DNA from: Inmirania thermothiophila
GTDB lineage: Bacteria > Pseudomonadota > Gammaproteobacteria > DSM-100275
Assembly (NCBI RefSeq): GCF_003751635.1
Contig: NZ_RJVI01000003.1
Span: forward strand, 1 to 64,000
DNA: 64,000 bases
Direction of reading: 5' to 3'
In this document: positions 18,538 through 33,692 of the stretch, piece by piece
How positions within the stretch are numbered: position 1 is the stretch's first letter
Layout: each line of letters opens with the position of its first letter
Position numbers and translations under genes: made by a program
Notes under the pieces: model-generated
The model's database searches: none
What the model saw: only the letters and a program-made list of their open reading frames with translations
Told to the model about the DNA's origin: nothing

Positions 18538-20318
18538 TCACCCGCGCGGCCGGGCGCGGCCATCCCGAGGCGGCGGTGACCCTGGAGGCCGTCCGTCCCG
18601 TGGTGGGCATGCTCTTCCGCGCCGCCGGCGGGGGCGGGGGGGTCGCCGTCACCGCGGGGGCGGCCCGGCGCCACGGCGCCCGCCGGCGGCTTCTCGAGCG
18701 CATCGCCGGCAGCGGGGAGCGCGCGGAGCTGGCCTCGGTGGACGCCGAGGCCCTGCGGCTGCCGCCGTGCATCGATCTCTTTCCCGAGGCCGCCCTCAAC
18801 CGCGACCTCTATCTCTGGCTCGCCGCCCTCGCCGCCGCGCCGGGGCCTGCGGCGGGCGGCGAGGACGCCTGGCTTGCCGCCAACCAGTGGCGCACCCGCT
18901 GGGTGCTGGGGCGCCTGCCGGGGATGCGGCCCCGCTACCGGCGGCTGGTGGCGGCGCATCTCGCCCGGCGCCCGGACCCGGCGCGGCTGCGCGGGGCGGA
19001 GGCGGCGCGGGAGCGGGCCGTGCGCGAGGCCCTCGAGCGGCCGGGGACGGTGACGGCGTGGCCGGCGGCGGGGCCGCCGGTGCACCCGGTGCCGCTCTGG
19101 CTCTACCCGGCGCCGGAGGGGCGCGGCGACGGCGGCCAGGGAGCCGAGGGCGACGGCGGCGGCGGGCGGGCGCGCAGCGGCGGGCGCCGCCACGCCGCGG
19201 AGCGGGTGGCGCTGCCGCAGCGCCGCGGCGGGCTGCTGCTCAACCGCTTCGAGGTCCTCATGACCCTCGGCGAGTACGTGCGCGTGCACCGCGAGCCCGA
19301 GGAGGGGGAGGCCGACCCGGCGGCGGCGGACGATCTCGACCACCTCAGCGTCGCCCGCGGCGGCCGGTCGGTGGCGTCCAGGGTGCGCTTCGACCTGGAC
19401 CTGCCGGCGGCCGAGGCCGACGACCGTCCCCTCGGGCCCGGCATCCGCCTGCCCGAGTGGGACTGGCGCCGCGGCCGGTTGCTGCCGGAGCGCTGCCTGG
19501 TGCGGCCCATGGTGGCGGCCCGCGCGGCCCCGGCGGTCCTGCCGGCGCATCTGCGCCGGCCGGCGCGGCGGCTGCGCCGCCACTTCGAGGCCCTGGCCCC
19601 GGGCCGGCTCTGGCACCGGCGCCGCCCCGAGGGGCAGGAGCTGGATCTCGAGGCGCTGCTGGAGTTCAGCGCCGACCGCCTGCGCGGGCGGGCCGACGCC
19701 GAGCGCGGCCTCCACTGCGCCCTGGACCGGGGCGGGCGCAGCCTCTCGTGCCTGCTGCTTGCCGACCTCTCCCTCTCCACCGATGCCTGGATCGGCGAGT
19801 CGGGTCGGGTCATCGACGTCATCCGCGACAGCCTCTTCCTCTTCGCCGAGGCCCTCGCCGCCACCGGCGACCGCTACGCCATCTACGGCTTCTCCTCGCG
19901 CCGGCGCGAGCACGTGCGCATGAATCTCATCAAGGCCTTCCACGAGCGCTACGATGCGGCGGTGCGCGGGCGCATCGCCGCGGTGCGGCCGGGCTACTAC
20001 ACCCGCATGGGGGCGGCGGTCCGCTATGCCACGCGGCTCCTTGCGGCGGAGCGCGCGGCGCGGCGCCTGCTGCTGCTGCTCACCGACGGCAAGCCCAACG
20101 ACCTCGACCACTACGAGGGCCGCTACGGGATCGAGGACACGCGCGAGGCGGTGCGGGAGGCGCGGCGCCAGGGGCTCGTGCCCTTCTGCGTCACCATCGA
20201 CGAGGAGGGCGCGGCCTATCTGCCCCATCTCTTCGGGAGCGAGGGCTTCGTGGTGGTGCGCAGGCCGGGGGAGCTGCCGCGGGAGCTGCCGCTGCTCTAC
20301 GCCCGGCTGACGGCATGA
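18501..20318 (+). CDS. norD: NorD, von Willebrand factor A domain protein
   Basis: A 605-residue cytoplasmic protein that partners NorQ in loading non-heme iron into NorB. The C-terminal 200 residues form a VWA domain: the MIDAS-like DLSLSTD, then LLLLTDGKPNDLDHYEG. The N-terminal part is helical and family-specific. I chose the GTG at 18501, which has GGGAGGG 7 nt upstream and gives EESVGLLWHRL at the start; it lies inside the end of the preceding ferredoxin gene, suggesting coupled translation. Confidence 0.92.
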   Translation: MEESVGLLWHRLITRAAGRGHPEAAVTLEAVRPVVGMLFRAAGGGGGVAVTAGAARRHGARRRLLERIAGSGERAELASVDAEALRLPPCIDLFPEAALNRDLYLWLAALAAAPGPAAGGEDAWLAANQWRTRWVLGRLPGMRPRYRRLVAAHLARRPDPARLRGAEAARERAVREALERPGTVTAWPAAGPPVHPVPLWLYPAPEGRGDGGQGAEGDGGGGRARSGGRRHAAERVALPQRRGGLLLNRFEVLMTLGEYVRVHREPEEGEADPAAADDLDHLSVARGGRSVASRVRFDLDLPAAEADDRPLGPGIRLPEWDWRRGRLLPERCLVRPMVAARAAPAVLPAHLRRPARRLRRHFEALAPGRLWHRRRPEGQELDLEALLEFSADRLRGRADAERGLHCALDRGGRSLSCLLLADLSLSTDAWIGESGRVIDVIRDSLFLFAEALAATGDRYAIYGFSSRRREHVRMNLIKAFHERYDAAVRGRIAAVRPGYYTRMGAAVRYATRLLAAERAARRLLLLLTDGKPNDLDHYEGRYGIEDTREAVREARRQGLVPFCVTIDEEGAAYLPHLFGSEGFVVVRRPGELPRELPLLYARLTA

Positions 20319-20326
20319 GGTGATCC

Positions 20327-21571
20327 ATGGGGGAACAGGAGACGGCAAGGCTCGAGCGGCTGCGGGCGGAGGGTCGGGTCTTCACCGCCGCGCCCCATCG
20401 CGTGATGTTCTTCGGCGGTGCCCTGCAGCTGGTGGCGGTGGCGGTTTGGTGGGCGGCGGAGCTCGCCGCCCGCGCCGCCGGCACCGCCCTGTGGGCGCCG
20501 GTGGCGCCGGCGGCGGTGCACGGGGCGCTCATGGTGCTGGGCCTCTTCCCGTTCTTCGTCTTCGGCTTCCTCATGACCACCTACCCGCGCTGGATGGGCG
20601 GGCGGCCGGTGCCGGTGGCCGCCTACGTCGGGGCCTTCGCGGCCATGGCGGCGGGGGTGGTGGCGGTCTACGCGGGCCTGCTGGCGCAGGCCGCGGCCGT
20701 GGTGGCGGCGGGCTTCGGCGGCCTCGCCCTCGGCTGGGCGGTGGCCCTGGCGGCGCTGTGGCGGGTCTTCCGCACCGCGCCGGCGCCCGACAAGCGCTAC
20801 GAGCGCTGGCTCAACGCCGCCCTCGCGGCGGGGCTCGCGGCCTGCGCCGCGACCGCCGTGGCGGTGGCGGCGGGACGGGGCGGTCCGGCCCTGCTCGCGG
20901 TGCGGCTCGCCCTGTGGTGGTTCCTGCTGCCGGTGCTGGCCACGGTGGCCCACCGCATGATCCCGTTCTTCTCCGAATGCGCCCTGGAGGGCTATCGCGG
21001 CTACCGGCCGCGGTGGAGCCTGCCCGCGATCAACGTCGGGCTCGGCCTGCACGGGCTGCTGGAGCTTGCGGGCCGGGGGGCATCGACCTGGCTCCCGGAC
21101 GCCCTGGTCGCGGCGGTGGCGCTGCATCACAGCCTGCGCTGGGGCCTGCGCCGGGCCCTCGAGGTGCGCCTGCTGGGGGTGCTGCACCTGGCCTACCTCG
21201 CCTTCGGCATCGGCATGGCCCTGGGGGCGGCGGACGGGCTTGCGCGGCTCGCCGGCACGGCGGGGCTCGGACGGGCGCCGCTGCACGTCGTCACGGTGGG
21301 CTTCGCCGCGGCCATGGTGATCGCCATGGCGACGCGGGTCAGCCGCGGTCACTCCGGGCGGCCGCTGGTGATGGACGGGCTCGAGTGGGCGGTCTTCTGG
21401 TCCTTCGAGGCGGCCATGGTGCTGCGCGTGGTCGGCGAGCTCGTGCCGGGGGCGGGCTGGGCCTCGCCCAACCTCGTCGCGGCGGGGGTGTGGACGCTGG
21501 CGGCGGCGGCGTGGGCGGGGCGCTACCTCCCCGTCTACCTCAGGCCGCGCCTCGACGGCCGTCCGGGGTGA
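20327..21571 (+). CDS. nnrS: NnrS family heme- and copper-containing membrane protein
   Basis: A 414-residue protein with about 12 membrane helices. The N-terminal FTAAPHRVMFFGGALQL and VHGALMVLGLFPFFVFGFLMTTYPRW are the NnrS signature. NnrS proteins bind heme and copper and protect cells from NO stress, notably by preventing iron-nitrosyl build-up. It follows norD by 8 bp. Confidence 0.92.
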   Translation: MGEQETARLERLRAEGRVFTAAPHRVMFFGGALQLVAVAVWWAAELAARAAGTALWAPVAPAAVHGALMVLGLFPFFVFGFLMTTYPRWMGGRPVPVAAYVGAFAAMAAGVVAVYAGLLAQAAAVVAAGFGGLALGWAVALAALWRVFRTAPAPDKRYERWLNAALAAGLAACAATAVAVAAGRGGPALLAVRLALWWFLLPVLATVAHRMIPFFSECALEGYRGYRPRWSLPAINVGLGLHGLLELAGRGASTWLPDALVAAVALHHSLRWGLRRALEVRLLGVLHLAYLAFGIGMALGAADGLARLAGTAGLGRAPLHVVTVGFAAAMVIAMATRVSRGHSGRPLVMDGLEWAVFWSFEAAMVLRVVGELVPGAGWASPNLVAAGVWTLAAAAWAGRYLPVYLRPRLDGRPG

Positions 21572-21576
21572 GCGCC

Positions 21577-22035
21577 ATGGACCTGGTGATCGCGCGCCTG
21601 GTGCACGTCCTCGCGGTGGTGCTCTGGATCGGAGGCGTGGGGCTGGTGGCGCTGGTGCTCCTGCCGCAGCTTCGCGCCGAGCCCGACGCCGCCGCCGCCT
21701 TCGCCCGCTTCCGCGACGTCGTACGCCGCTTCGCCGCGATCGCGCGCTGGCTCGTGGCCCTTGCCGGCATCGCCGGGCTGCACATGCTGGCGCGGCTCGA
21801 CGCCTGGGGGCGCTTCGCCGTGCCGCGCTTCTGGTGGATGCACGCCATGGTGGCGCTGTGGACGGTATTCTTCCTGGTGCTCTTCGTCGCGCAGCCCCTC
21901 GCCGAGCGGCGCGACCCGGCGCCGGACGACCCGGCCCGGGCGCTGCGCCTTGCCCAGCGCGCCCATTGGGTCCTGCTGGCGGCGAGCCTCGTCACCGTGG
22001 CCGCGGCGGTGGCGGGGGCCCACGGGGGGCTCTGA
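21577..22035 (+). CDS. CopD-like four-helix membrane protein at the end of the nor operon
   Basis: A 152-residue integral membrane protein with four hydrophobic helices and conserved His residues (RLVHVLAVVLWIGGVG; WWMHAMVALWTVFF; RAHWVLLAAS), resembling CopD/DUF2269-type heme or copper membrane proteins. Such genes often follow nnrS. It converges on the TonB-like gene with a 3-bp gap and no visible terminator. Confidence 0.7.
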   Translation: MDLVIARLVHVLAVVLWIGGVGLVALVLLPQLRAEPDAAAAFARFRDVVRRFAAIARWLVALAGIAGLHMLARLDAWGRFAVPRFWWMHAMVALWTVFFLVLFVAQPLAERRDPAPDDPARALRLAQRAHWVLLAASLVTVAAAVAGAHGGL

Positions 22036-22038
22036 GCC

Positions 22039-22974
22039 TCAGCCGCCGGGCAGGAAGTCGATGGAGAAGGTCCCCTGCCACGGGGCCACGTCCCGCGGCT
22101 CGAAGCGCAGCAGGCGCACACGGGCCACGAGGCGGTCGAGGAAGGCACGGTCGTCGATCTCGCTGGAGAGCACGCGGCAGGCGGTGACGGTGCCGTCGGG
22201 GGCGATGGCGAGCTCGAGGACGACGCGTCCGCGGATGCCGATGCGGCGTCGCTGGGCGCGCCGGTAGAGGGCGTCGAAGGCCGCCTTGTGGCGGTCGAAG
22301 ACGAGCTGGATCTCCTCGCTGGTGCGGGCGGCGGCGCGGCGCTCGCGTGCCGCCGCGGCAAGCTCCGGGGCCTGCACCTCGCGCACGGCGCCGGCGGCGA
22401 GGGGGGCGCCGCCCACCGCGGCCCCCGGCGCGGCGACCCCGCCGCTGCCTTCGCCCGCGCGGGCGGTGAGCAGGCGCCGCCCGCCGGCCCCGGTCTCCGC
22501 CGCCTTGCGGGTGGGCCGCGTCCCGGCCAGGGCCTCGGTGGCGGGCAGCTCGCGCAGCGCCGCAAGCTCGCCGGCGAGCGCCAGCAGCCCGGCCTGCCGC
22601 GCCCGCTCGCGGGCGGCGGCGATCTCCTGCGACGGCGCCGGCCTGCGCTGCGGGGGCGGTTTCGGCGCCGCCCGCTTCTCGGGCCGCGGGGGCTTCTCGG
22701 GCTCGGGCTTTGGTTCCGGCTCCTCCCGCCGCTCCACCCGCGGTGGCGGCGGTGGCGGTGCGGCCCGGCGCTGCTCGACGAGACGGGCAAGCCGCGGCGG
22801 CACGCGCTCCAGCTCCTGGCGGCTGACCCTGGGCGGGGGCACGAGGAAGGTGAGCACCAGGCTCGCCGCGGTGAACAGGGTCAGGGTCGCGGCGAGGATG
22901 CGGCGGAAGCGGCGCCGCTCCTGCGGGTCCTCGCTCCACGGCAGCAGCGGCGGCGGCAGCGCGGCGGCGTCCAT
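22039..22974 (-). CDS. TonB-like energy transducer with AgmX/PglI-type C-terminal domain
   Basis: A 311-residue protein: cytoplasmic start, one membrane helix near residues 27-46 (ILAATLTLFTAASLVLTFLV), a Pro/Glu/Lys-rich linker (PPPPPRVERREEPEPKPEPE), an Ala-rich helical part, and a C-terminal domain (LVFDRHKAAFDALYRRAQRR, then GRVVLELAIAPDGTVTACRV) like that of AgmX/PglI and TonB. It should carry force from the neighbouring ExbB/ExbD motor across the periplasm. It is the last gene of an eight-gene operon. Confidence 0.85.
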   Translation of the reverse strand: MDAAALPPPLLPWSEDPQERRRFRRILAATLTLFTAASLVLTFLVPPPRVSRQELERVPPRLARLVEQRRAAPPPPPPRVERREEPEPKPEPEKPPRPEKRAAPKPPPQRRPAPSQEIAAARERARQAGLLALAGELAALRELPATEALAGTRPTRKAAETGAGGRRLLTARAGEGSGGVAAPGAAVGGAPLAAGAVREVQAPELAAAARERRAAARTSEEIQLVFDRHKAAFDALYRRAQRRRIGIRGRVVLELAIAPDGTVTACRVLSSEIDDRAFLDRLVARVRLLRFEPRDVAPWQGTFSIDFLPGG

Positions 22975-23451
22975 TCAGGAACGCCCCTCCCGGCGTACCA
23001 CGGCCAGGGAGATGCGGGGATAGCCGGCCGCGCTCAGGGTCTGCATGACGCGCTGGAGGAGCGCGAAGGGGATGGTGCGGTCGCCCACCACGGTGGCCTC
23101 GCGCGCGGCCGGGGGCAGGCCGGAGCGGGCGGCCTGGTGGGCGAGCTCCTCGGCGAGCGGCGCGATGGGGCCGTCGGGCGGGATCGCCGCGACGCGCACC
23201 ACGGGGCGGTCCTGGACGAGGATCGCCTCCGGCGTCACCGTCACCACCAGGGTCTGGCGCGGCGGGGTCTCGGCGCGCCCCGTGGGGAGGCGGACGGCGC
23301 GCCCCGGCGGCTGCACGTCGGAGGTGTTCACGAGGAGGAAGAACACCAGGATGGTGAAGATGTCCATGAGCGAGACCAGGTGCAGGCGCACCGGCGTGCC
23401 GCGGGCGTGGCGGCGGGCCATGCGGCGGGCGCGGCGGGATGCGGCGCTCAT
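22975..23451 (-). CDS. ExbD/TolR-family proton channel subunit, second copy
   Basis: A 158-residue protein with a basic N-terminus, one membrane helix (LVSLMDIFTILVFFLLVN) holding the Asp that carries protons in ExbD/TolR (SLMDIF), and a periplasmic domain ending in LSLAVVRREGRS-like sequence. It is paired with another ExbD gene, with a 4-nt overlap. Two different ExbD copies suggest a heteromeric stator. Confidence 0.9.
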   Translation of the reverse strand: MSAASRRARRMARRHARGTPVRLHLVSLMDIFTILVFFLLVNTSDVQPPGRAVRLPTGRAETPPRQTLVVTVTPEAILVQDRPVVRVAAIPPDGPIAPLAEELAHQAARSGLPPAAREATVVGDRTIPFALLQRVMQTLSAAGYPRISLAVVRREGRS

Positions 23452-23939
23452 GGCGCCCCCTCCGGCGGCGCCTCGCCGAGGGCGACGTCGGGAAAGAGCA
23501 GCCCGCCGCCGCCCTCCGGCCCGAGGCGCACGGTGTCCATGACGTCCACCAGGGTCTGGTAGGCGATCTCGGGCTCGAGCAGGAGCGTGATCTCGCGCGC
23601 CTCGGGGAAGCGGGCCTTGATCTCGGCCAGCTTCGCGGCGAGGGCGCCGTAGTCGTAGCCCTCGTCGCGGCGCGGAAAGCGGGCGATGGGGCCGGTGGCG
23701 GCGTCGGCGAGGAGCAGGCCGGTGCGGCGCACGGTGAGCTCGAGGCGCAGGCGCGGCGGGTCCGCCGGCCGCGCCTGCTCGCTCTCCGGAAGGTGGAGCT
23801 CCATCACCGCGAGGTGGGAGAAGACCGCCGAGAGCAGGAGGAAGGGCACCAGCACCACCATCAGGTTCATGAAGGCGGTGACGTCGATCTCGGGCTCCGC
23901 ACGCAGGCGGCGGCGCCGGGCCCTGAGCCGCGCGATCAT
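23448..23939 (-). CDS. ExbD/TolR-family proton channel subunit, first copy
   Basis: A 163-residue protein with an Arg-rich N-terminus and one membrane helix, IDVTAFMNLMVVLVPFLLL, in which the Asp of EIDVTAFMN is the proton-carrying residue. The periplasmic domain ends with a Gly/Pro-rich tail. The start overlaps the ExbB stop by 4 nt. Similarity to the second copy is low, as in AglQ/AglS of Myxococcus. Confidence 0.9.
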   Translation of the reverse strand: MIARLRARRRRLRAEPEIDVTAFMNLMVVLVPFLLLSAVFSHLAVMELHLPESEQARPADPPRLRLELTVRRTGLLLADAATGPIARFPRRDEGYDYGALAAKLAEIKARFPEAREITLLLEPEIAYQTLVDVMDTVRLGPEGGGGLLFPDVALGEAPPEGAP

Positions 23940-24613
23940 GCCTGCGCGGGGGCCTCGGTGCCGGCGGGCGGCTCCGCCGCGGGCGGTGCGCCGCGCACGA
24001 TGTTGACCAGCTTCACGGCCGCCATCTCGAGGCTGTCGATGATCTCGTGGGTGCGGCTCTGGATGACGGCGTGGGCGAGCAGGAGCGGGATCGCGGTCAT
24101 GAGGCCGAAGGCGGTGGTGTTCATGGCCACCGAGATGCTGGTGGAGAGGAGCGCCGCCTTCTGGGTCGGGTCGGCGTTGGCGACCGCGGTGAAGGCCGAG
24201 ATGAGGCCGAGGATGGTGCCGAGAAGCCCGAGGAGGGTGGCGATGTTGGCGAAGATGGCGATGTACTGGGTGCGCCGCTCGAGCCGCGGCACGATCTCCA
24301 TCAGGCTCTCCTCCATCGCCGTCTCGAGGTCGTCGGCACGGCGCCCGCGCCCGACCCGGGCGAGGCCGTAGGCGAGCATCCTGCCGATGGTGCTCTCCGA
24401 GGTGCTGGCGAGCTCCAGGGCCTGGGGGAACCGGCCCTGGTGCAGGAGCGGCAGGATCTGGTCCCAGATCTTGCGGTTGCGCGCCCGCACGCGGCCCAGA
24501 TAGATCCAGCGCTCGATGGTGATGGCCACGCCGAGGGCCAGCACCACCACGATCGGGTACATGAAGGGGCCGCCCTCCTGGAAGAAGCGGATCGCGGTCG
24601 CCAGCGGGTCCAT
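23936..24613 (-). CDS. MotA/TolQ/ExbB-family proton channel protein
   Basis: A 225-residue inner-membrane protein with three helices. Family features are the FFQEGGPFMYPIVVVLALGVAITIERW start, a cytoplasmic loop, and IATLLGLLGTILGLISAF followed by NTTAFGLMTAIPLLLAHAV. With the two ExbD proteins it should form a proton-driven motor. Read as ExbB-type rather than MotA because of its length and ExbD neighbours. Confidence 0.93.
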   Translation of the reverse strand: MDPLATAIRFFQEGGPFMYPIVVVLALGVAITIERWIYLGRVRARNRKIWDQILPLLHQGRFPQALELASTSESTIGRMLAYGLARVGRGRRADDLETAMEESLMEIVPRLERRTQYIAIFANIATLLGLLGTILGLISAFTAVANADPTQKAALLSTSISVAMNTTAFGLMTAIPLLLAHAVIQSRTHEIIDSLEMAAVKLVNIVRGAPPAAEPPAGTEAPAQA

Positions 24614-24628
24614 GGCCGTCCTCCTCGC

Positions 24629-24880
24629 TCACTCACGCGGGGAAGCGGGGATTATAGGGGCTTGTCCGCCCTCGGCGGCGGGCGGCGGCACGGCGAGGGG
24701 GTCCGGCGGCGCCGGCAGCGGCGGCGGCTCGGCTGGCTGCGGTGCCCGCCACGGCAGCAGGTAGAGCACCCGCGGCAGCTCGCGGTCGCCGATCACGGCC
24801 ATCCCCAGCTGCCCCTCGGGGAGGGTATCGCCGGCCGCGGCGCCAGCGAGCATCAGCAGCAGCGCGGCCGCCGCCCTCAT
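24629..24880 (-). CDS. Small exported protein between TPR lipoprotein and ExbB genes
   Basis: An 83-residue protein with a signal peptide (MRAAAALLLMLAGAAAG) and a short mature part rich in Pro (PAPPDPLAVPPP) after GMAVIGDRELPRVLYLLPW. No family recognised. Start at 24880 has GGAGGGG upstream and overlaps the preceding stop by 4 nt. Its place inside the operon suggests a periplasmic accessory role; GMAVIGDRELP...LPW may be a contact motif, by analogy with small partners of TPR proteins. Confidence 0.6.
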   Translation of the reverse strand: MRAAAALLLMLAGAAAGDTLPEGQLGMAVIGDRELPRVLYLLPWRAPQPAEPPPLPAPPDPLAVPPPAAEGGQAPIIPASPRE

Positions 24881-25515
24881 CGGTCCCCTCCGCCGCGGTG
24901 GGCGGCGAGGGCCTCGGCCCATGCCGCCACCGTGGGGTCCCCGCCGGCGAGCTCGAGATAGCGGCGGTAGGCCTTCAGAGCTTCGTCCGGCCGGCCCAGG
25001 AAGAGCTCCTCGAGCACGCCGAGATTGTGGTGGGCGAGGGCGTAACGGCGGTCGGCGCGGATCGCCGCGCGGTAGGCCTTCTCGGCCTCGGCGAGGCGAC
25101 CCTGCTCGCGCAGCAGCACGCCGCGGAGGTTGAGGGCCGGGGCCCAGCGGGGGGCGGCGGCGAGGGCCCGCTCCACCGCCGCCAAGGCGGCCTGCGGCTC
25201 GCCCGCGCGGCGCAGCAGCAGGGCGAGGTTGAGGTGCACCCCGGCGGGGGCGTCGGGGCGGGCGGCCAGGGCCTCGAGGATGGGGCGGGCGTCGTCGTCG
25301 TCGCCCGCCCTGAGCCGCGCCAGGGCCTCGGCGAAGCCGGCCTCCAGCGCCGCGCGGTCGGCCTGCGGCGCCGGCCCGGCAGGCTGCGGCTCGGGGGCGG
25401 GGCGGGATGGGGACGGCGCCGGCGGGGGTGCCGGCGGCTGCGCGGCGCAGCCCGCCAGCACCAGCACGGCCGCCGCCAGCAGCGGCTCAGGGCGTCGGAT
25501 CCAGGACGTCCACAT
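24877..25515 (-). CDS. TPR lipoprotein
   Basis: A 212-residue protein with a lipobox (LVLAGCAAQ, Cys near residue 22), a Pro-rich linker, and about four TPR units (VHLNLALLLRRAGEPQAALA; PALNLRGVLLREQGRLAEAE; ALAHHNLGVLEELFLGRPDEA). Likely lipid-anchored in the periplasm. The start overlaps the end of the large TPR gene by 29 nt, which argues for coupled translation; a later start is possible but would lose the lipoprotein signal. Confidence 0.8.
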   Translation of the reverse strand: MWTSWIRRPEPLLAAAVLVLAGCAAQPPAPPPAPSPSRPAPEPQPAGPAPQADRAALEAGFAEALARLRAGDDDDARPILEALAARPDAPAGVHLNLALLLRRAGEPQAALAAVERALAAAPRWAPALNLRGVLLREQGRLAEAEKAYRAAIRADRRYALAHHNLGVLEELFLGRPDEALKAYRRYLELAGGDPTVAAWAEALAAHRGGGDR

Positions 25516-28500
25516 GGTGTTCCACCTTCTCGCGGCGGTCGTAGTGGGCGGGATCGAGGGCCCGCAGGGCCTCGAGGCTGGCCGCCACCCAGCGGTCCCA
25601 GACGCCCTCACGGGCACGCGCCAGGTTGGCGGCGTGGAGCTCGACGGCGCGGTCCTCGAACGGCAGCGCCTGCTCCTCGAGCAGCACCTCGTACTGCGCG
25701 CGCGCGAGCGCGTCGAGGCCGGCGGGGCGCTCGGAGGCCAGGACATCGGCGGCGAGGCGGCGGTAGAGCTCGCCCACGCGGTAGGCGGCCTCGGTCACCG
25801 CCCCCGCGACCCCGGTGCGGGCGGCGGTCTCGTAGTGGCGCACCGCCTCCTCCAGGGCCTCGCGCTTGCGGGCGAGGCTCGCGCGCAGGGGCAGGCGCAG
25901 GCGGACGGCCTCGAAGCGGGCGCGGGCGATGTCGCCCAGGGCCAGGGCCGCGCGGGCGGCGAGGGTGTGGGCGGCGTCGGAGGCACCCGCCGCCTCCCTG
26001 CGGTAGGCGGAGAGGAGGCGGCGCAGCCAGATCGCGCGGCGTTCCGCGTCGCCGGCCTCTGCGTAGAGCCCGGCGAGGCGCCACCGCGCCTCCAGGGCCT
26101 CGTCCAGCGGGCGCGGATGCCGCGCGACGTAGTCGCGCAGGACATCGATCGCCTCGCGCCGGGCGCCCGCGGCGGCGAGGAGCTCGGCGGCGTGCAGGCG
26201 CGCCGCCCGCGCCACCGCCTCGTCGCGGCTCGCGGCGGCCACGCGCAGGAGCTCGCGCGCGGCCTCGGTGCGGCGGCCGAGGTGCTCGTAGGCGAGGGCC
26301 AGCTTCTCCGGGACCCGCGCGGCCAGGGGGTGGTCGGGGCTGTCCGCGCGCAGGGCCTCCAGCGCCTCGGCCGCCTCGGGCCAGCGCTCGAGCCGGATGA
26401 GGAGGGCGGCGGCGTCGAAGCGCGCCGGCGCCTCGAGCCCGGAGTCCGGGAGCTCGCGCGCCACGCGCAGGAACGCCGCCGCGGCCTCGGCGAGGCGGCC
26501 GCCGTCGCGCAGCGCCTCGGCCTGGCGGTAGAGCGCCAGCGCCAGGCGCGCCCGCACCGCCCGGGCGGAGGGGTCGGCCTCGAGGGCGGCGCGCCAGGCC
26601 GCCTCGGCGCCGGCCCAGTCCCCGGTCCGCGCCCGCGTCTCGCCGATCACCGCCAGCCCGCGGGCGCGCAGCGGCGCGGGGGCGTCCAGGAGCCCGGCGG
26701 CGGCCGCCACCGCCTCGTCGTCGCGGCCCGACTCCAACAGCGCCTCGGCGAGCCGGGCGCGGACCTCGGCCTGCCGCGGCGCCTGCGGGAAGCGGTCGAG
26801 GAAGCGGCGGGCGTCGGCGACGAAGCGGGCGCGGCCGCGGTCCGAGTCCCGCAGCGGGCCGTCGAGGAGCGCAAGCGCCGTGTAGCCGGCGGCGGCGGCG
26901 TCGGCGTGGGGCGGATCCGCCCACGCCGCCGCCTCGTAGGCGGCGAGCGCCTCCCGGGTGCGCCCGGCGGCGCGCAGCAGCTCGCCGAGGAGGAAGCGGT
27001 GCGGTCCCCGCGCCTCCGCGGGCACCGCCTCGAGGAGGGCGCGGTAGCGGCGCTCCGCCTCGGCCGCCGGCGCCTCGCCGGCCTGGAAGGCGGCGTGGGC
27101 GCGCCGGGCCAGCGCCTCCAGGTGCGGGGCGATGGCGGCCCCGACGCGGCCGCGTGCGGTCTCGTCGAGGCCCGCCCAGAAGGGGCTGCCCGGGCCGTAG
27201 TCGGCGGCGAGGCGCTCCCGCGCCGGCCACAGCAGGCTGGGGAACCCCCCGGCGGCGTAGGCCTCGGCGGCGCGGGCGGCGAAGAGGGCCGCCTGCACAT
27301 CCGCGGGGTGGCGGCGGCCGTAGGCGAGAAAGGCCTCGGCGGCGTCGACGAAGCGCTCCTTGCGCAGGTAGTGCTCGCCGAGGCCCTGGTAGAGCAGGGC
27401 CGCGAAGGGAAGCGGGCGGCGTCCGAGGGCGGCGTCGAGGACGCGGACGCCGCCCTGGTGGTCGAGGGCGAGGGCGAGCACGCCCAGGGTGTCCTCGAGG
27501 AGCTGGCGGCGCGGGCCCGAGGCGGCCTCGAGGCCGCCCGGCGGGAGCTCGGCGGCGAGCACGGCGAGGAAGTCGTCTTCGGCCTCCGCGTAGGCGCCCA
27601 GCTTGTAGCGCGACCAGCCGCGCTTGTAGCGGGCGTGGACCGCGAGCGGGCCGCTGCCGCCCTCGAGCGCGCGGCTGTAGGCGTCGGCGGCCTCCGCGTA
27701 GCGGCCGAGGGTGAAGCGGGTCTCGCCGAGACGGAACCAGATCTCGGTGGCGAGGGCCCCGTCGGCGTCCGCGGCCGCCGTCTCCAGGGCCCGGGCGGCG
27801 CCGGCGAGGTCGGCGGCGAGGTCGGCAGCGTGGGCCTGCTGGTAGCGCAGACGGGCGCGGCGCCCGGGGTCGGCCTCGGTGCCGGCGAGGCGCCCGTAGA
27901 GCGCGGCCGCCTCGGCGAGGGCGGGATCGACCCCGGGGAGCGGCCGGCCGGTGGTCTCCTGGGCCTCGCCGCTGGCGAGGAGGAGGGCGGCGAGGTGCTC
28001 GGCCGCGGCCGCGGCGGTGTCGGGCTCGGGCGCCGCGGCGAGCCGGCGCAGCGCGCGCGCGGCGCGGCCGAAGTCGAAGGGGGGCGGCGGCGCGTGCTGC
28101 GGGCGCAGGGCGAGCACCGCCGCGACGGTCTGCGCCTCGTGCGGCGGGAGGGTGCGGCCCGCCCCCGGCGCGGGGGCGGCGCGGGCGATGGCCCCGAGGC
28201 GGGCGGCGAGGCGGAGCTGCCCCCGGCGCAGGCGTGCGCGGCGCGCGTCCACCGCGGCGAGGACGGTCTGCGCCATCGCCTCCTCGAGGCGGGCCGCTTC
28301 CTGGCGCAGGCGCGCGGCCGCGGTCCGCGCCTCGTCGGCGAGGGCGGCGAGACGCGGGGCGAGGCCGCCGTAGGGCGGTCCGGCCTCGCCCTCCAGACGG
28401 GCCAGCGCCGCCTCGACCGCCGCGAGCTCGGCCTCGGCGGCCTCGTCGTCGCCGCGGCCTCGCCACCAGATCCCGCGCGCCCGCCGGCCGCCGACCGCTC

Positions 28501-29548
28501 GCACCAGCCCCAGGTACAGGCGGTGGAGCTCGGGCTCCGGGGGGCCGTCGAGGAGGGTGGCGAGGCGGGCATCCAGCGGGTGCTCCGGCAGCGGCAGCAG
28601 GGCGTGGCGGCGTGGCGCCAGGCGCCGCGCCGCCGCCGCCACCTCGCGCGGGCGGGCCTCCACCAGGGGTGCCGCGTGCGCGAGGCGGTCGGCGGCGGCC
28701 TCGAGCCGCACGGCCTCGGCGCGCAGCCGCGCCTGCAGCTCGCGGGCCGCGGCGAGGCGCGGGTCGCGGCAGGCCTCGGGGAGGGCGCCGCAGGCGGCGG
28801 CGAGCCGCTGCCCGGGCGGGCCTTGGGGTAGGGCCAGGGCGGTCTCGGCGGCCTCCAGGCGGCCGAGGGCGCGGGCGAGAAGGTCGGCGGCCGCGGCGGC
28901 GGCACCGTCGCGCAGCAGCGCCGCGGCGGCGCGCTCGGCGGCGCGGGCGGTTTCGCTGCCCGGCGTCCCCCGCAGGGCGAGGTGCATGCGCACCGCCAGC
29001 GCCGCCGCCGCCTCGCCCTGGGCATCGAGGGCGCGGGCGGCGAGGCGAAGCGCGGGCGGATCGGGCGGCAGCGGCCGCAGGCGGGCCAGGGCCTCGTCGG
29101 CGCGGCCCTGGCGCAGGGCGAGTTCGGCGGCGGCGAGGCCGAGGGACGGGGCGGGCGGCGGTGGCGCGCGGTCGAGGGCGGAGATCGCCTCCGCCGGGCG
29201 GCCGAGGCGGTGGAGGGCGATGGCGCGCAGCAGCGTGGCCTCCGGGCCCGGCGCCTGTGCGAGGTGGGCGAGGGCCGCCTCGGGGGCGCCGCGGGCGAGG
29301 GCGAGCCGGGCGTGCAGCTCCGGTGCGCCGGCGAGCCGCTGGAGGAGGCGTGCGGCGCCCTCGAGGTCGCCCGCGGCGAGCGCCGCGGCGGCGTCCAGAC
29401 GGGGGGTGCCGGGCGGCGGGGGCGGCGGCTGCCGGCGCGCGCCGTGGGCGGCCAGGATCTCCGCTACCAGCGCCTCGGGCCCCGGCGCCGCCAGCGCCGT
29501 GCCCGCCAGGAGCAGGGCCGCGGCGGCGGCCCCGCGGCTCAGGGCCAT
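25487..29548 (-). CDS. Giant periplasmic TPR protein
   Basis: A 1353-residue protein with a signal peptide (residues 1-20, ending in LAAP) and TPR-like helical repeats over almost its full length, for example LALARGAPEAALAHLAQAP near the start, IWFRLGETRFTLGRYAEAA in the middle and WRLAGLYAEAGDAERRAIW near the end. No catalytic domain is visible. In AglT- and TtpC-like systems such proteins bridge an ExbBD motor to envelope partners. It lies between a small exported protein and a TPR lipoprotein in the ExbBD operon. Composition is extremely Ala/Arg-rich, which makes repeat boundaries hard to set by eye. Confidence 0.85.
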   Translation of the reverse strand: MALSRGAAAAALLLAGTALAAPGPEALVAEILAAHGARRQPPPPPPGTPRLDAAAALAAGDLEGAARLLQRLAGAPELHARLALARGAPEAALAHLAQAPGPEATLLRAIALHRLGRPAEAISALDRAPPPPAPSLGLAAAELALRQGRADEALARLRPLPPDPPALRLAARALDAQGEAAAALAVRMHLALRGTPGSETARAAERAAAALLRDGAAAAAADLLARALGRLEAAETALALPQGPPGQRLAAACGALPEACRDPRLAAARELQARLRAEAVRLEAAADRLAHAAPLVEARPREVAAAARRLAPRRHALLPLPEHPLDARLATLLDGPPEPELHRLYLGLVRAVGGRRARGIWWRGRGDDEAAEAELAAVEAALARLEGEAGPPYGGLAPRLAALADEARTAAARLRQEAARLEEAMAQTVLAAVDARRARLRRGQLRLAARLGAIARAAPAPGAGRTLPPHEAQTVAAVLALRPQHAPPPPFDFGRAARALRRLAAAPEPDTAAAAAEHLAALLLASGEAQETTGRPLPGVDPALAEAAALYGRLAGTEADPGRRARLRYQQAHAADLAADLAGAARALETAAADADGALATEIWFRLGETRFTLGRYAEAADAYSRALEGGSGPLAVHARYKRGWSRYKLGAYAEAEDDFLAVLAAELPPGGLEAASGPRRQLLEDTLGVLALALDHQGGVRVLDAALGRRPLPFAALLYQGLGEHYLRKERFVDAAEAFLAYGRRHPADVQAALFAARAAEAYAAGGFPSLLWPARERLAADYGPGSPFWAGLDETARGRVGAAIAPHLEALARRAHAAFQAGEAPAAEAERRYRALLEAVPAEARGPHRFLLGELLRAAGRTREALAAYEAAAWADPPHADAAAAGYTALALLDGPLRDSDRGRARFVADARRFLDRFPQAPRQAEVRARLAEALLESGRDDEAVAAAAGLLDAPAPLRARGLAVIGETRARTGDWAGAEAAWRAALEADPSARAVRARLALALYRQAEALRDGGRLAEAAAAFLRVARELPDSGLEAPARFDAAALLIRLERWPEAAEALEALRADSPDHPLAARVPEKLALAYEHLGRRTEAARELLRVAAASRDEAVARAARLHAAELLAAAGARREAIDVLRDYVARHPRPLDEALEARWRLAGLYAEAGDAERRAIWLRRLLSAYRREAAGASDAAHTLAARAALALGDIARARFEAVRLRLPLRASLARKREALEEAVRHYETAARTGVAGAVTEAAYRVGELYRRLAADVLASERPAGLDALARAQYEVLLEEQALPFEDRAVELHAANLARAREGVWDRWVAASLEALRALDPAHYDRREKVEHHVDVLDPTP

Positions 29549-30033
29549 GCCCGCACCTCGAGGTGGCGGATGCGGTCGCCGAGGATGGTGAGCTCGACGA
29601 CCTTGGGGGCGGCCTCCTTGACCAGATCGTAGCGGGTGCCCTGCTCGTAGGCGTAGCCGTTGAGATCGCGGCCCCCCATGACGGCCTCGAGCCGGTATCG
29701 CCCCGGCGGCAGCCGGGCCGCCCAGAAGGGGAGAACGCCGTCGGAGAGGAGCGCACCGAGCTCATCCTGTCCAGGCCGGTGCTCGGCGACCACGCGCCCG
29801 TCCAGGCGCAGGATCACGGATTCGAGGACGAAGGGGGCGCCGAAGCGCATGGAGAGGAGGACGAGGACCCTGTCGCCGTCGGGGGCGAGGACCGCCTCCT
29901 CGGCGGCCCAGGCCTCGGTCAGGACCCGGCGGGTGTCCGACAGCGCCGCGCGCGCCGCCGCCGCGGCCTCGTCCAGGGGGTCGGCGCGGACGATCCCCGC
30001 CAGCAGGGCGGCGGCGAGCAGGACGTGACGCAC
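29539..30033 (-). CDS. Exported protein of unknown family, first gene of the ExbBD-TPR operon
   Basis: A 164-residue protein with a signal peptide (VLLAAALLAGIVRA), then a mostly beta-strand-like mature part (DGDRVLVLLSMRFGAPFVLESVILRLDG; RLPPGRYRLEAVMGGRD), suggesting an Ig-like or lipocalin-like fold. No family recognised. The GTG start at 30033 has GGGAGG upstream. It overlaps the giant TPR gene by 10 nt and leads the operon; its promoter must lie in the 155-bp gap to 30189, where I saw no clear -10/-35. Confidence 0.7.
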   Translation of the reverse strand: MRHVLLAAALLAGIVRADPLDEAAAAARAALSDTRRVLTEAWAAEEAVLAPDGDRVLVLLSMRFGAPFVLESVILRLDGRVVAEHRPGQDELGALLSDGVLPFWAARLPPGRYRLEAVMGGRDLNGYAYEQGTRYDLVKEAAPKVVELTILGDRIRHLEVRAWP

Positions 30034-31137: not shown

Positions 31138-31248
31138 GGCGTTCTCCTCCCTGAGATCCGCAACGGGCGCACTGAATAAATCTAGCACGGATGCGCGCGC
31201 GTGGCAGGGTGCGCCGGGATGGGCTAAGCCATGGGGCATGGGGGCGTG

Positions 31249-31755
31249 ATGCGCTGGACACGGCGGGGTCTGCTGAGGCTTGCGGCGGCGGGGCTTTCGG
31301 GCCTTGCCGGGGCGGCGGTGGGGCTGCGCCTCTGGCGCGCGCGGCCCTTGCGCGGGGCCGAGCGCGGCGTGCTCGATGCCGCGGTGGACGCCGTGGTGCC
31401 CGCCGACGAGGCGCCGGGGGCGCTGGATCTCGGGATCGCGGCCGCCCTCGCGGCCGAGGCCGAGGGGGATCCCCGCCTGCGCCGGCTGCTGCGCGAGGGT
31501 GTGCGGTGGCTCGAGCGGGAGGCCAGGTCGGTACACGGGCGGGGCTACGCCGCCCTCGGCGAGGAGGCGCGCACGGCGCTGCTCCTGGCCGCGGCGGGGC
31601 GGTCGGGTCCGCCGCGGCGCTTCTTCGAGACCCTGCGCCGGGAGGTCCTCGTGCGCTACTACGGCGATCCGGGGGTGTGGGCCGCGATCGGGTACCGGGG
31701 GCCGCCGCAGCCGCGGGGCTACCCCCGCTACTGGGCGCCGCCGGACGATGCCTGA
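31249..31755 (+). CDS. Gluconate 2-dehydrogenase subunit 3 family, Tat-exported
   Basis: A 168-residue protein. The N-terminus MRWTRRGLLRLAAAGLSGLAG has a twin-arginine signal, and the mature part (DAAVDAVVPADEAPGALDLGIAAAL; FFETLRREVLVRYYGDPGVWAAIGY) matches the small subunit of GMC-type membrane dehydrogenases. This subunit carries the folded catalytic partner through the Tat pathway. The ATG at 31249 is preferred over 31231 because it places the Arg pair near the start. It overlaps the next gene by 8 nt. Confidence 0.85.
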   Translation: MRWTRRGLLRLAAAGLSGLAGAAVGLRLWRARPLRGAERGVLDAAVDAVVPADEAPGALDLGIAAALAAEAEGDPRLRRLLREGVRWLEREARSVHGRGYAALGEEARTALLLAAAGRSGPPRRFFETLRREVLVRYYGDPGVWAAIGYRGPPQPRGYPRYWAPPDDA

Positions 31756-33388
31756 GCCGGTGGACGTGGTGGTGGTGGGGGCGGGCGCCGGGGGCACCGC
31801 CTGCGCCTGGCGGCTCGCCAGCCGCGGCGCCTCGGTGATGGTGCTGGAGTCCGGCCCCGCCTACGATCCCGCGCGGGACTACCGGCTCCATCGCCCGGAC
31901 TGGGAGCGGGTGGGCTTTCCCGAGAAGCGGCCGGGCCTGCCCTACACGGTGGCGCCGCTGCAGCCCCTGGATCCCGCCCACGACTCCCTGCGCTCCTGGA
32001 GCGCGGGGCTCGGGCGCATCAACCGCACCGGGCGCCGCCAGCCCGTGGGCTACCTGCACGTGCGCGGCGTCGGCGGGGCGACGCTCCACTTCACCGGCGA
32101 GGCCCACCGGCTGCACCCGGACGCCTTCCGCATCCGCAGCCTGCTCGGGGTGGGCGCCGACTGGCCGCTGGGGTACGAGGCCCTGGAGCCCTACTACGAC
32201 GTGGCGGAACGGATCGTCGGGGTGGCGGGGACGGATCCGGACCCGCGCTGCCCCCGCTCGCGGCCCTACCCCTTCCCGCCCCATCCCGTGGGCTGGACGT
32301 CGCGCCCGGTGATCGCGGGGCTGCGCCGGCTGGGCCTCGGCTGGGCGCCGAACCCCCTCGCCGTGCTCCCGCAGCCGTGGGACGGGCGGCCCGCGTGCAA
32401 CTACTGCGCGCAGTGCAACCGGGGCTGCCCGCGCCGCGACAAGGGCAGCGCCGACGTGACCTTCGCCCGGCGCGCCGCGGCCACGGGGCGCTGCCGCATC
32501 GTCACCGGGGCGACGGTGCTGCGCGTGCTGCCGGACCGCCGCGACCGCGTGCACGGGGTGGAGTACGCGGACGAGGCGGGCGGCCGGCACCGGGTGCGGG
32601 CGGGGGCGGTGGTGCTGGCGGCGGGGGCCGTGTTCACGCCGCGCCTGCTCCTCGTCTCCGGGCTCGGCAACGAGAGCGGCGAGGTGGGCCGCAACTTCAT
32701 GGAGACCCTGTCCTGGACCTCGGCCGGGCTCCATCCGCGCCCCTTGCAGGCCCACCGCGGGCTGCCCCGGGAGGTGATCTGCTGGGACCGCAGCGCCCCG
32801 GACCCCGCCGCCCGGGTGCCGGGCGGGTTCCGCCTCGGCCCTGCCACCGCGGAGGCCGGCTACGCGGGGCCGGCGGGCCATGCCGTGCACCTCGTCGCCG
32901 GCATCGGCCGCGGCCACAAGCGCGCCATGCGCGAACGCTTCGGCCATGCCCTCGCGGTGGGCGCCATCGGCGAGTGCCTGCCCAACCCCGGCAGCTTCGT
33001 CGACCTCGACCCCGAGGTGCGCGACGCCCACGGCCTGCCGGTGGCGCGCATCCACAGCCGGCTCGATGCCGATGCCCTGGCGCGTCTTGCCGAGATGGCG
33101 GCGACGGTGCGCGCGGTCCTCGCCGCCGCGGGCGTCGAGGCGGTGGCCGCCGAGTTCGGCAGCCTCGATCTCTTCCAGAGCACCCACGTCTTCGGCACCT
33201 GCCGGATGGGGCGGGATCCGCGGACCTCGGTGGTGGACGACCAGGGGCGGAGTCACCGCTGGCGCAATCTCTGGATCGCCGACGCCAGCGTCTTCCCCTC
33301 CTCCGGCGGCGGCGAGGCCCCTTCCCTCACGGTGGAGGCGCTGGCCATCCGCACCGCCGACGCGATCCTCGCCGCGGCCCGCGGGTGA
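31748..33388 (+). CDS. GMC family FAD-dependent oxidoreductase
   Basis: A 546-residue flavoprotein. The dinucleotide-binding motif VVVGAGAGGTACAWRLA is at residues 7-23. It also has CNYCAQCNRGCP, a Cys-rich motif seen in the sugar-dehydrogenase-like GMC branch, and the catalytic His block STHVFGTCRMG near the C-terminus, followed by GLWIADASVFPSSGG-type FAD-binding sequence. It has no signal and is probably exported with the Tat subunit. The usual cytochrome c partner is not adjacent; substrate unknown. Confidence 0.9.
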   Translation: MPEPVDVVVVGAGAGGTACAWRLASRGASVMVLESGPAYDPARDYRLHRPDWERVGFPEKRPGLPYTVAPLQPLDPAHDSLRSWSAGLGRINRTGRRQPVGYLHVRGVGGATLHFTGEAHRLHPDAFRIRSLLGVGADWPLGYEALEPYYDVAERIVGVAGTDPDPRCPRSRPYPFPPHPVGWTSRPVIAGLRRLGLGWAPNPLAVLPQPWDGRPACNYCAQCNRGCPRRDKGSADVTFARRAAATGRCRIVTGATVLRVLPDRRDRVHGVEYADEAGGRHRVRAGAVVLAAGAVFTPRLLLVSGLGNESGEVGRNFMETLSWTSAGLHPRPLQAHRGLPREVICWDRSAPDPAARVPGGFRLGPATAEAGYAGPAGHAVHLVAGIGRGHKRAMRERFGHALAVGAIGECLPNPGSFVDLDPEVRDAHGLPVARIHSRLDADALARLAEMAATVRAVLAAAGVEAVAAEFGSLDLFQSTHVFGTCRMGRDPRTSVVDDQGRSHRWRNLWIADASVFPSSGGGEAPSLTVEALAIRTADAILAAARG

Positions 33389-33422
33389 CGGTGTCGGATT
33401 TTTTGACAACCGGCGCGCCGCG

Positions 33423-33436
33423 GCCTCCGCGGAGGC
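33423..33436. repeat. 14-bp perfect palindrome upstream of the PEP-CTERM gene
   Basis: GCCTCCGCGGAGGC lies 36 bp before the sigma-54-like -24/-12 site. It could be part of an upstream activator site or the end hairpin of the GMC transcript. Confidence 0.4.
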
Positions 33437-33471
33437 GTGCAACCCGTTGAAGGAGCCGGCGTTCCCTGTGC

Positions 33472-33487
33472 GGGCGCGGATCTTGCA
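33472..33487 (+). promoter_or_regulatory. Sigma-54-type promoter of the PEP-CTERM gene
   Basis: GGGCGCGGATCTTGCA keeps the GG-N10-GC core of RpoN promoters and differs from TGGCACG-N4-TTGCA at only two consensus positions. It starts 62 bp before the ATG at 33534. PEP-CTERM genes in Betaproteobacteria such as Zoogloea are controlled by RpoN with PrsK/PrsR, so the placement makes sense. Confidence 0.6.
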
Positions 33488-33533
33488 CGGGCACGGTGCC
33501 GGGCTCGGCCGGCGCCGTGAGGAGGAGATCGTC

Positions 33534-33692
33534 ATGAAGGCACTGCTGTCGCTGCTGGCCGCGCTGGCGCCCTGGACCGTCTGGGCCGGCGCGGCCGGAG
33601 GGCCCACCGGGACCATCCCCGAGCCCTCCACCATCGCCCTGCTCGCGGCCGGGGCGGTCGGGGTCGCCCTCGCCGCCCGCAGGCGCCGCTGA
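33534..33692 (+). CDS. Minimal PEP-CTERM sorting-domain protein (52 residues)
   Basis: The whole protein is a signal peptide (KALLSLLAALAPWTVWAGA), a short Gly/Thr spacer and a textbook PEP-CTERM signal: IPEPSTIALLAAGAVGVALA followed by ARRRR. After signal peptidase and exosortase cutting, only about ten residues would remain. GAGGAG precedes the ATG. A sigma-54-like promoter lies upstream, supporting a real gene. It could act as a decoy or regulator for the exosortase, or as a precursor of a small surface peptide. Confidence 0.8.
   Translation: MKALLSLLAALAPWTVWAGAAGGPTGTIPEPSTIALLAAGAVGVALAARRRR

Follow-up and report, generated by a model that had tools for sequence, protein, structure and literature searches.

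The operon and its gene products

The DNA analysed here, referred to below as the window, comprises 64,000 nucleotides of Inmirania thermothiophila (Gammaproteobacteria; positions 1 to 64,000 of contig NZ_RJVI01000003.1, assembly GCF_003751635.1). Its minus strand carries an eight-gene operon (30033..22039; g1 to g8), the products of which include an ExbB/ExbD-type motor, a TonB-like transducer and several exported proteins, and which almost certainly belongs to the Agl-Glt core complex in a stand-alone, reduced form. The host genome is 2.6 Mb in size and 99.85% complete, and the nearest relatives that were compared belong to the same class only.

The operon opens with g1 (29539..30033), which starts with a GTG codon behind a GGAGG sequence and encodes a 164-residue exported protein predicted to consist of a helix and a transthyretin-like β-sandwich. 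The next gene, g2 (25487..29548), encodes a 1353-residue exported TPR protein that is GltC-like over residues ~1-540 and GltD-like over residues ~540-1353, and is followed by g3 (24877..25515) for the TPR lipoprotein GltE (AglT; lipobox LVLAGC), which has TPR matches and weak matches to the NCBIfam GltE, Tgl and PilW families, and by g4 (24629..24880) for an 83-residue exported protein, the probable GltF. The motor genes come next: g5 (23936..24613) encodes the ExbB/TolQ-type channel ring AglR (PF01618, E 1.5e-27), g6 (23448..23939) the ExbD1 subunit in the AglQ position (PF02472, E 2.9e-14) and g7 (22975..23451) the ExbD2 subunit in the AglS position (PF02472, E 1.6e-13). The last gene, g8 (22039..22974), encodes GltG, with one membrane helix, a Pro-rich linker and an AgmX/PglI-TonB C-terminal domain (NF033768, E 2.4e-11; TIGR01352, E 1.4e-7; PF03544, E 3e-5), and lacks a forkhead-associated (FHA) domain. 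No Pfam or NCBIfam family matches g1 or g4, and a sequence search of the PDB returned designed or generic TPR proteins only for g2, weak TonB matches only for g8 and ExbB/TolQ for g5.

Re-checking of the coordinates bore out the layout given in a preliminary description of the window, namely eight genes on one strand with overlaps mostly of 4-29 nucleotides: the successive junctions from g1 to g8 are overlaps of 10, 29 and 4 nucleotides, a gap of 15 nucleotides, two further overlaps of 4 nucleotides each and one abutting pair. The domain calls of that description (ExbB, two ExbDs, an AgmX/TonB-like transducer and TPR in two proteins) were likewise confirmed by Pfam and NCBIfam, and the two ExbDs that it had called unlike match AglQ and AglS separately. 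A divergent SirB-like gene (30189+) borders the operon on one side and a convergent gene with its stop near 22035 on the other. A promoter scan of the operon found none, and a terminator scan returned matches at chance level. The guanine-cytosine content is ~78%, at which long spurious open reading frames are common (one of 1233 codons lies antisense to g2), so that frame length alone is no proof of a gene; the eight genes are nevertheless real, because their order and strand are kept in dozens of other gammaproteobacterial genomes.

Relationship to the Agl-Glt core complex

Luciano et al. (2011; PMC3169522) described a core complex made up of GltC, GltD, GltE, GltG, AglR, AglQ, AglS and the product of one extra gene, which is encoded in a single locus in Gammaproteobacteria, is also present in Geobacter and Fibrobacter, and had no function assigned; Marinobacter and Saccharophagus are among the carriers that they name. 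Wartel et al. (2013; PMC3858216) later suggested that the core might be a basal machinery for transport. The window shares GltD, GltE, GltG, AglR, AglQ and AglS with the published gammaproteobacterial core, again in one operon and with an extra gene, which is g1 or g4, and differs from it by the probable fusion of GltC and GltD. Genes in the relatives were called from open frames and profile matches. Profiles built from the gammaproteobacterial loci were run against a 9.0-Mb Myxococcus genome (G057) whose MglA is 99% identical to the M. xanthus MglA query, and in which clusters were named from gene order, size and adjacency rather than from locus tags. They recovered AglR (E 6e-51), AglQ (E 6e-24) and AglS (E 1.3e-31), the counterparts of the adjacent g5, g6 and g7, as well as GltE (E 8e-32) and GltG (E 1.4e-17) of the gliding cluster G1. 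Two features agree with published data and thereby support the assignment of the loci concerned (L160 and L162): GltF of the presumed G1 cluster has 89 residues, and the proton-binding Asp of the presumed AglQ is at position 28.

The GltD profile matched four Myxococcus paralogues (E 7e-48 to 4e-93), among them that of G1 (E 1e-64) and, as the best match, that of the G4 cluster (E 4e-93). This best score does not make G4 the sister of the gammaproteobacterial proteins, since all four paralogues group together in the GltD tree, apart from the latter. The G4 cluster (MXAN_1922-type) has the order g1-like, gltC, gltD, gltE, gltF-like, gltG in common with the window but has no motor of its own and a GltG with an FHA domain. 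In the comparison genome it begins immediately downstream of mglA, which encodes the polarity GTPase (L158:5337-15596). A mutant in its gltD (MXAN_1922) showed no motility defect (Luciano et al., 2011; PMC3169522).

The Myxococcus gliding machinery (G1, G2 and M1) has the same type of motor, TonB-like transducer and TPR periplasmic proteins as the operon. In contrast to it, the window operon holds all its genes in one unit, lacks GltA, GltB, GltH, GltI, GltJ and GltK, encodes a GltG without FHA and has an Asn for Asp28 of AglQ, and the GltA/B family (TIGR04565) is missing from the whole window genome. The Nfs spore-coat machinery, which is driven by AglRQS and moves surface polysaccharide, consists of the same modules but includes the NfsA/B barrels and is specific to sporulation. 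The Ton and Tol-Pal systems share the 5:2-type ExbB/ExbD motor and the TonB-type C-terminal domain; unlike them, the window operon has two unlike ExbDs and several TPR or periplasmic proteins, and no receptor, and neither TolB nor Pal domains were found in it with Pfam and NCBIfam.

Spread and gene order in Gammaproteobacteria

In a sample of 370 genomes drawn evenly from the class, GltD was detected in 89, which represent 69 of 272 genera and 46 families. We examined 75 further loci, 73 of which contain GltD, and in 64 of these 73 gltD, g4, aglR, exbD1, exbD2 and gltG occur all together. Although some members went undetected in some loci, the order g1-gltC-gltD-gltE-g4-aglR-exbD1-exbD2-gltG is kept in 63 of the 64 loci that are complete enough, the single exception being due to an extra gltE-like match behind the unit. 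The ancestral unit is one of nine genes. No broad conservation was found among the genes downstream of gltG in the relatives. Several gammaproteobacterial genomes carry a second gltC-gltD-gltE-g4 copy, with or without g1, alongside which no motor genes were found (L237, L244, L249 and L255); these copies resemble the situation in Myxococcus, where the motor and glt clusters lie apart. Pairs of g1 and gltC with neither gltD nor motor alongside were also seen (L024:3227-5810 and L027:5127-7680).

The giant TPR protein as a probable GltC-GltD fusion

Nearly all relatives have two genes at the position of g2, one for an exported GltC of ~600 residues and one for the ~940-residue lipoprotein GltD; in the window a single frame without a second lipobox is found. 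The frame and length of the 1353-residue TPR protein had been given correctly in the preliminary description, which missed that it probably unites two genes. The C-terminal half of g2 is 30-36% identical to GltD of 13 other loci and is found by the GltD profile at E 8e-270. Clear fusions occur elsewhere (L033, L224, L229, L241, L252 and L253), in three other families, and their N-terminal halves are recognised as GltC with E values of at most 8e-47. From its position and these clear fusions we take the remaining, N-terminal half of g2 to be GltC, and g2 would accordingly be a GltC-GltD fusion. Such fusions arose more than once. A single origin was considered and rejected, as the tree needs four label changes, at least three of which are forced by well-supported branches.

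Genes 1 and 4

Homologues of g1 were found in 15 of 56 relatives, and g1 opens the unit in most loci. Its AlphaFold2 model (mean predicted local distance difference test score, pLDDT, of 82) resembles transthyretin-like folds with VIA Z values of 8-9.5 and a best Foldseek E of 0.0098; because transthyretin-like sandwiches are common, function is not inferable from this fold. A weak but significant relative of g1 (E 1.2e-8) lies in Myxococcus between mglA and gltC in L158. The extra gene of the published core was reported to have no homologue in Myxococcales (Luciano et al., 2011; PMC3169522), a statement that this relative contradicts if g1 is the gene meant.

The second small gene, g4, lies between gltE and aglR in 70 loci and agrees with GltF in position, size and signal peptide. 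When g4 and GltF profiles were compared, they aligned over their length and scored above all of 200 column shuffles, with an hhalign probability of 7.7% for the deeper alignment and 2% for a comparison of mature parts based on few sequences. As these probabilities are low despite the result against the shuffles, g4 is called only the probable GltF. The g4 of the window keeps the IxGxxELPxxLYxxPW motif and has lost a second conserved motif at the C-terminus, where it is Pro-rich instead. GltF is cited in a review as TonB-box-like (PMC9389320); in g4, such a site would be represented by the conserved stretch I-x-G-x-x-E-L-P-k-x-l-y-I-v-P-W.

The Asp/Asn pairing of the two ExbDs

A feature that had escaped the preliminary description is the loss of the proton-binding Asp from one of the two ExbDs. 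The membrane motif of g6 reads TAFMNLMVV, with Asn25 in place of Asp28 in the TAFIDLMAV motif of Myxococcus AglQ. Asn occupies this position in 63 of 65 gammaproteobacterial loci and Asp in the other two, and Asp is also found in all four myxobacterial copies (two from Myxococcus and two from Sorangium). The partner subunit g7 keeps its membrane Asp (SLMDIFTILVFF), as do all 69 AglS-position subunits; the pore Thr residues of AglR (g5) are kept as well. The two other ExbD/TolR proteins of the window genome also retain the Asp. In Myxococcus, the D28N exchange in AglQ abolishes proton conductance and paralyses the machine (PMC3858216). According to a review of 2022 (PMC9389320), it is not known whether AglQ and AglS form hetero- or homodimers. 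Since one subunit has lost the proton Asp while its partner never loses it, the sequences argue for a heterodimer, and an obligate Asp/Asn heterodimer with one proton path would be the simplest reading, which we are inclined to accept. This lineage also offers a natural test object for the number of protons that a 5:2 motor needs.

Outer membrane barrels and a redox cassette in relatives

Comparison of the 75 further loci and 370 genomes showed that GltA/B-type barrels, usually with a haem/flavin cassette, co-occur with the core in many relatives and not in the window genome. In many relatives, the same strand upstream of g1 encodes C0, a ~900-residue lipoprotein whose middle domain is of the hydrazine-synthase-alpha type and which bears two or three CXXCH motifs, together with an SH3-barrel protein, a barrel of the TIGR04565 family, a protein resembling thioredoxin, DUF4266, DUF3570 and ApbE. 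The co-directional order C0-C1-C2-C3-DUF4266-DUF3570-ApbE is conserved and in many loci runs on into g1-gltC; in some genomes the cassette lies 10-15 kb from the core or is oppositely oriented. It is often faced by a divergent trio composed of a Tat-signal protein, a LamG/CXXCH lipoprotein and a mono-CXXCH protein. The highly conserved upstream cassette is seen in L268-L287 (e.g., L269:2094-10606), where it includes the barrel pair and where two of the three facing proteins have no Pfam match. In Myxococcus, TIGR04565 matches the pairs of barrels encoded next to gltC and nfsC, which by position are GltA/B and NfsA/B.

TIGR04565 scored above its cut-off in 56 of the 89 GltD-positive genomes, from 31 families, and in none of the 281 GltD-negative ones; the corresponding counts are 52 and 1 for C0 and 75 and 22 for DUF3570 (Fisher p <1e-37 for each of the three, uncorrected for phylogeny). 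Profile searches of the window genome gave no match to TIGR04565, C0 or DUF3570, and it is one of 14 among the 89 GltD-positive genomes that lack all three. Luciano et al. (2011; PMC3169522) had placed GltA and GltB in Myxococcales and Bdellovibrionales alone; the gammaproteobacterial barrels correct the view of a restriction to myxobacteria and Bdellovibrio. Mignot and Nollmann (PMC5349195) pointed to stretches of GltA/B that may be TonB boxes. The flavinylation of DUF3570 by ApbE and the set of ApbE, DUF3570, thioredoxin-like protein and DUF4266 have been described (Meheust et al.; PMC8238504), and in the open-licence literature we found no paper that links DUF3570 or the hydrazine-synthase-like set to the Agl-Glt core. 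The barrels and haem/flavin genes are the first concrete, testable lead that we found for the role of the widespread stand-alone core. Candidatus Tenderia electrophaga (PMC5371394) was considered as a functional lead and rejected, as the TPR gene that adjoins triheme cytochromes there is unrelated.

Taken with the earlier survey of Luciano et al. (2011), these data add a GltF-like gene to the core, a relative of g1 in Myxococcus, the common occurrence of GltA/B-type barrels in gammaproteobacterial genomes and the Asn in the AglQ position.

Proposed mechanism and alternative explanations

The best overall explanation of the operon, and one that we regard as probable as a whole, is a reduced stand-alone Agl-Glt core that works by proton-driven pulling on an outer membrane complex; membership in the core is almost certain, and the proton-driven pulling seems fairly likely. 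By homology, AglR (g5) would form a pentameric ring around one ExbD1 helix (with Asn) and one ExbD2 helix (with Asp), and this rotor would be turned by proton flow through its single Asp side. GltG (g8), bound to the ring, would span the periplasm, and its TonB-type domain would make cyclic contact with a periplasmic and outer membrane assembly presumably formed by the GltC-GltD fusion g2, the lipoprotein GltE (g3), the GltF-like g4 and the transthyretin-like g1, in which the TPR proteins may serve as scaffold. An outer membrane complex, in most relatives likely the GltA/B-type barrel pair, would thereby be pulled or moved. The GltG-AglR interaction and coupling through TonB boxes have been published or proposed for Myxococcus (PMC3169522; PMC5349195; PMC9389320). 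The preliminary description had likewise considered a force-transmitting envelope machine, a view that the Agl/Glt homology suggests was right, and had said that the layout recalls the Agl/Glt motors, which is correct but understates a relationship that is one of homology and synteny with a published core (PMC3169522). It had also held its reading to be at odds with clear homology to a characterised gliding operon of the same gene set; this objection is borne out by half, as the homology is unmistakable but our literature search found no functional test of a stand-alone core and the window genome is without GltA/B barrels.

Several points weigh against this explanation. The N-terminal half of g2 is weakly recognisable as GltC, being collinear with it at an hhalign probability of 78% but with a HMMER score not above that of shuffles of the Ala-rich sequence. 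The membrane His of TolA/TonB type is missing from GltG in 60 of the 65 loci, so that the coupling of GltG to the ring may differ. No outer membrane partner of the window machine was identified, there being no TIGR04565 barrel in the genome, and our literature search found no functional data on any stand-alone core. Moreover, because D28N paralyses the Myxococcus motor, an Asn that occurs naturally at this position might point to a device that is weak or does not rotate. Taken further, the Asn would leave the complex not energised, as a motor that idles or is regulated or else as a passive tether. The loss of both conductance and motion in the AglQ mutant (PMC3858216) and the presence of Asn in nearly all loci speak for such a device, but the invariant Asp of ExbD2 and the pore Thr of AglR suggest a retained proton path, and we consider it unlikely.

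Of the roles that such a machine might have, the placing or energising of surface redox proteins is a tentative possibility, in which the motor would work on GltA/B-type barrels that display C0 together with the DUF3570/DUF4266/ApbE/thioredoxin set, and cores that lack these, such as that of the window, would serve another surface protein. The co-occurrence of barrel, C0 and DUF3570 with GltD, the cassette order that continues into g1-gltC and the known flavinylation of DUF3570 (PMC8238504) favour it; however, neighbourhood is not function, the association tests take no account of phylogeny, the idea is not directly applicable to the window genome, and 14 of the 89 GltD-positive genomes are devoid of all three families. 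A more specific version, and a somewhat more speculative one, is that the rotor of gammaproteobacterial cores is an obligate Asp/Asn heterodimer with one proton path per turn, and that these proton motors exert mechanical force on the GltA/B-type barrels and so place or operate haem and flavin redox proteins at the surface; copies of the window type would then have another, undiscovered partner there. A machine for surface motility or adhesion, comparable to that of Myxococcus gliding, would fit the homology to GltC/D/E/G and AglRQS, yet it is improbable in view of the missing GltA/B family and the natural Asn at the Asp28 position; in addition, Myxococcus strains with polar mutations in the G4, G5 and nfs homologues of gltD showed no defect in motility, and the core alone was argued to drive no motility (Luciano et al., 2011; PMC3169522). 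Least probable is nutrient uptake of the TonB or TtpC type with a distant receptor. It could account for the ExbB, ExbD and TonB_C domains, but the closest matches are to Agl/Glt and the AgmX tail, with all TonB equivalogs below cut-off. The TtpC-type likeness drawn in the preliminary description is not supported. The same description had correctly pointed out that the operon has no TonB-dependent receptor or DUF3450 gene; Pfam and NCBIfam detected neither these nor a TtpC gene in the operon or in the flanking genes tested, and the gene set is instead that of g1-GltC-GltD-GltE-GltF.

Neighbouring genes

Beside the operon, positions 31231-33689 of the window hold a gluconate-2-dehydrogenase subunit 3-like gene, an oxidoreductase-like open reading frame, which looks GMC-type by eye and has no Pfam match in the frame tested, and a gene for a short PEP-CTERM protein. 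On the other side, positions 18900-21568 encode a VWA-domain protein (NorD/CbbO-like by eye) followed by a co-directional NnrS gene.

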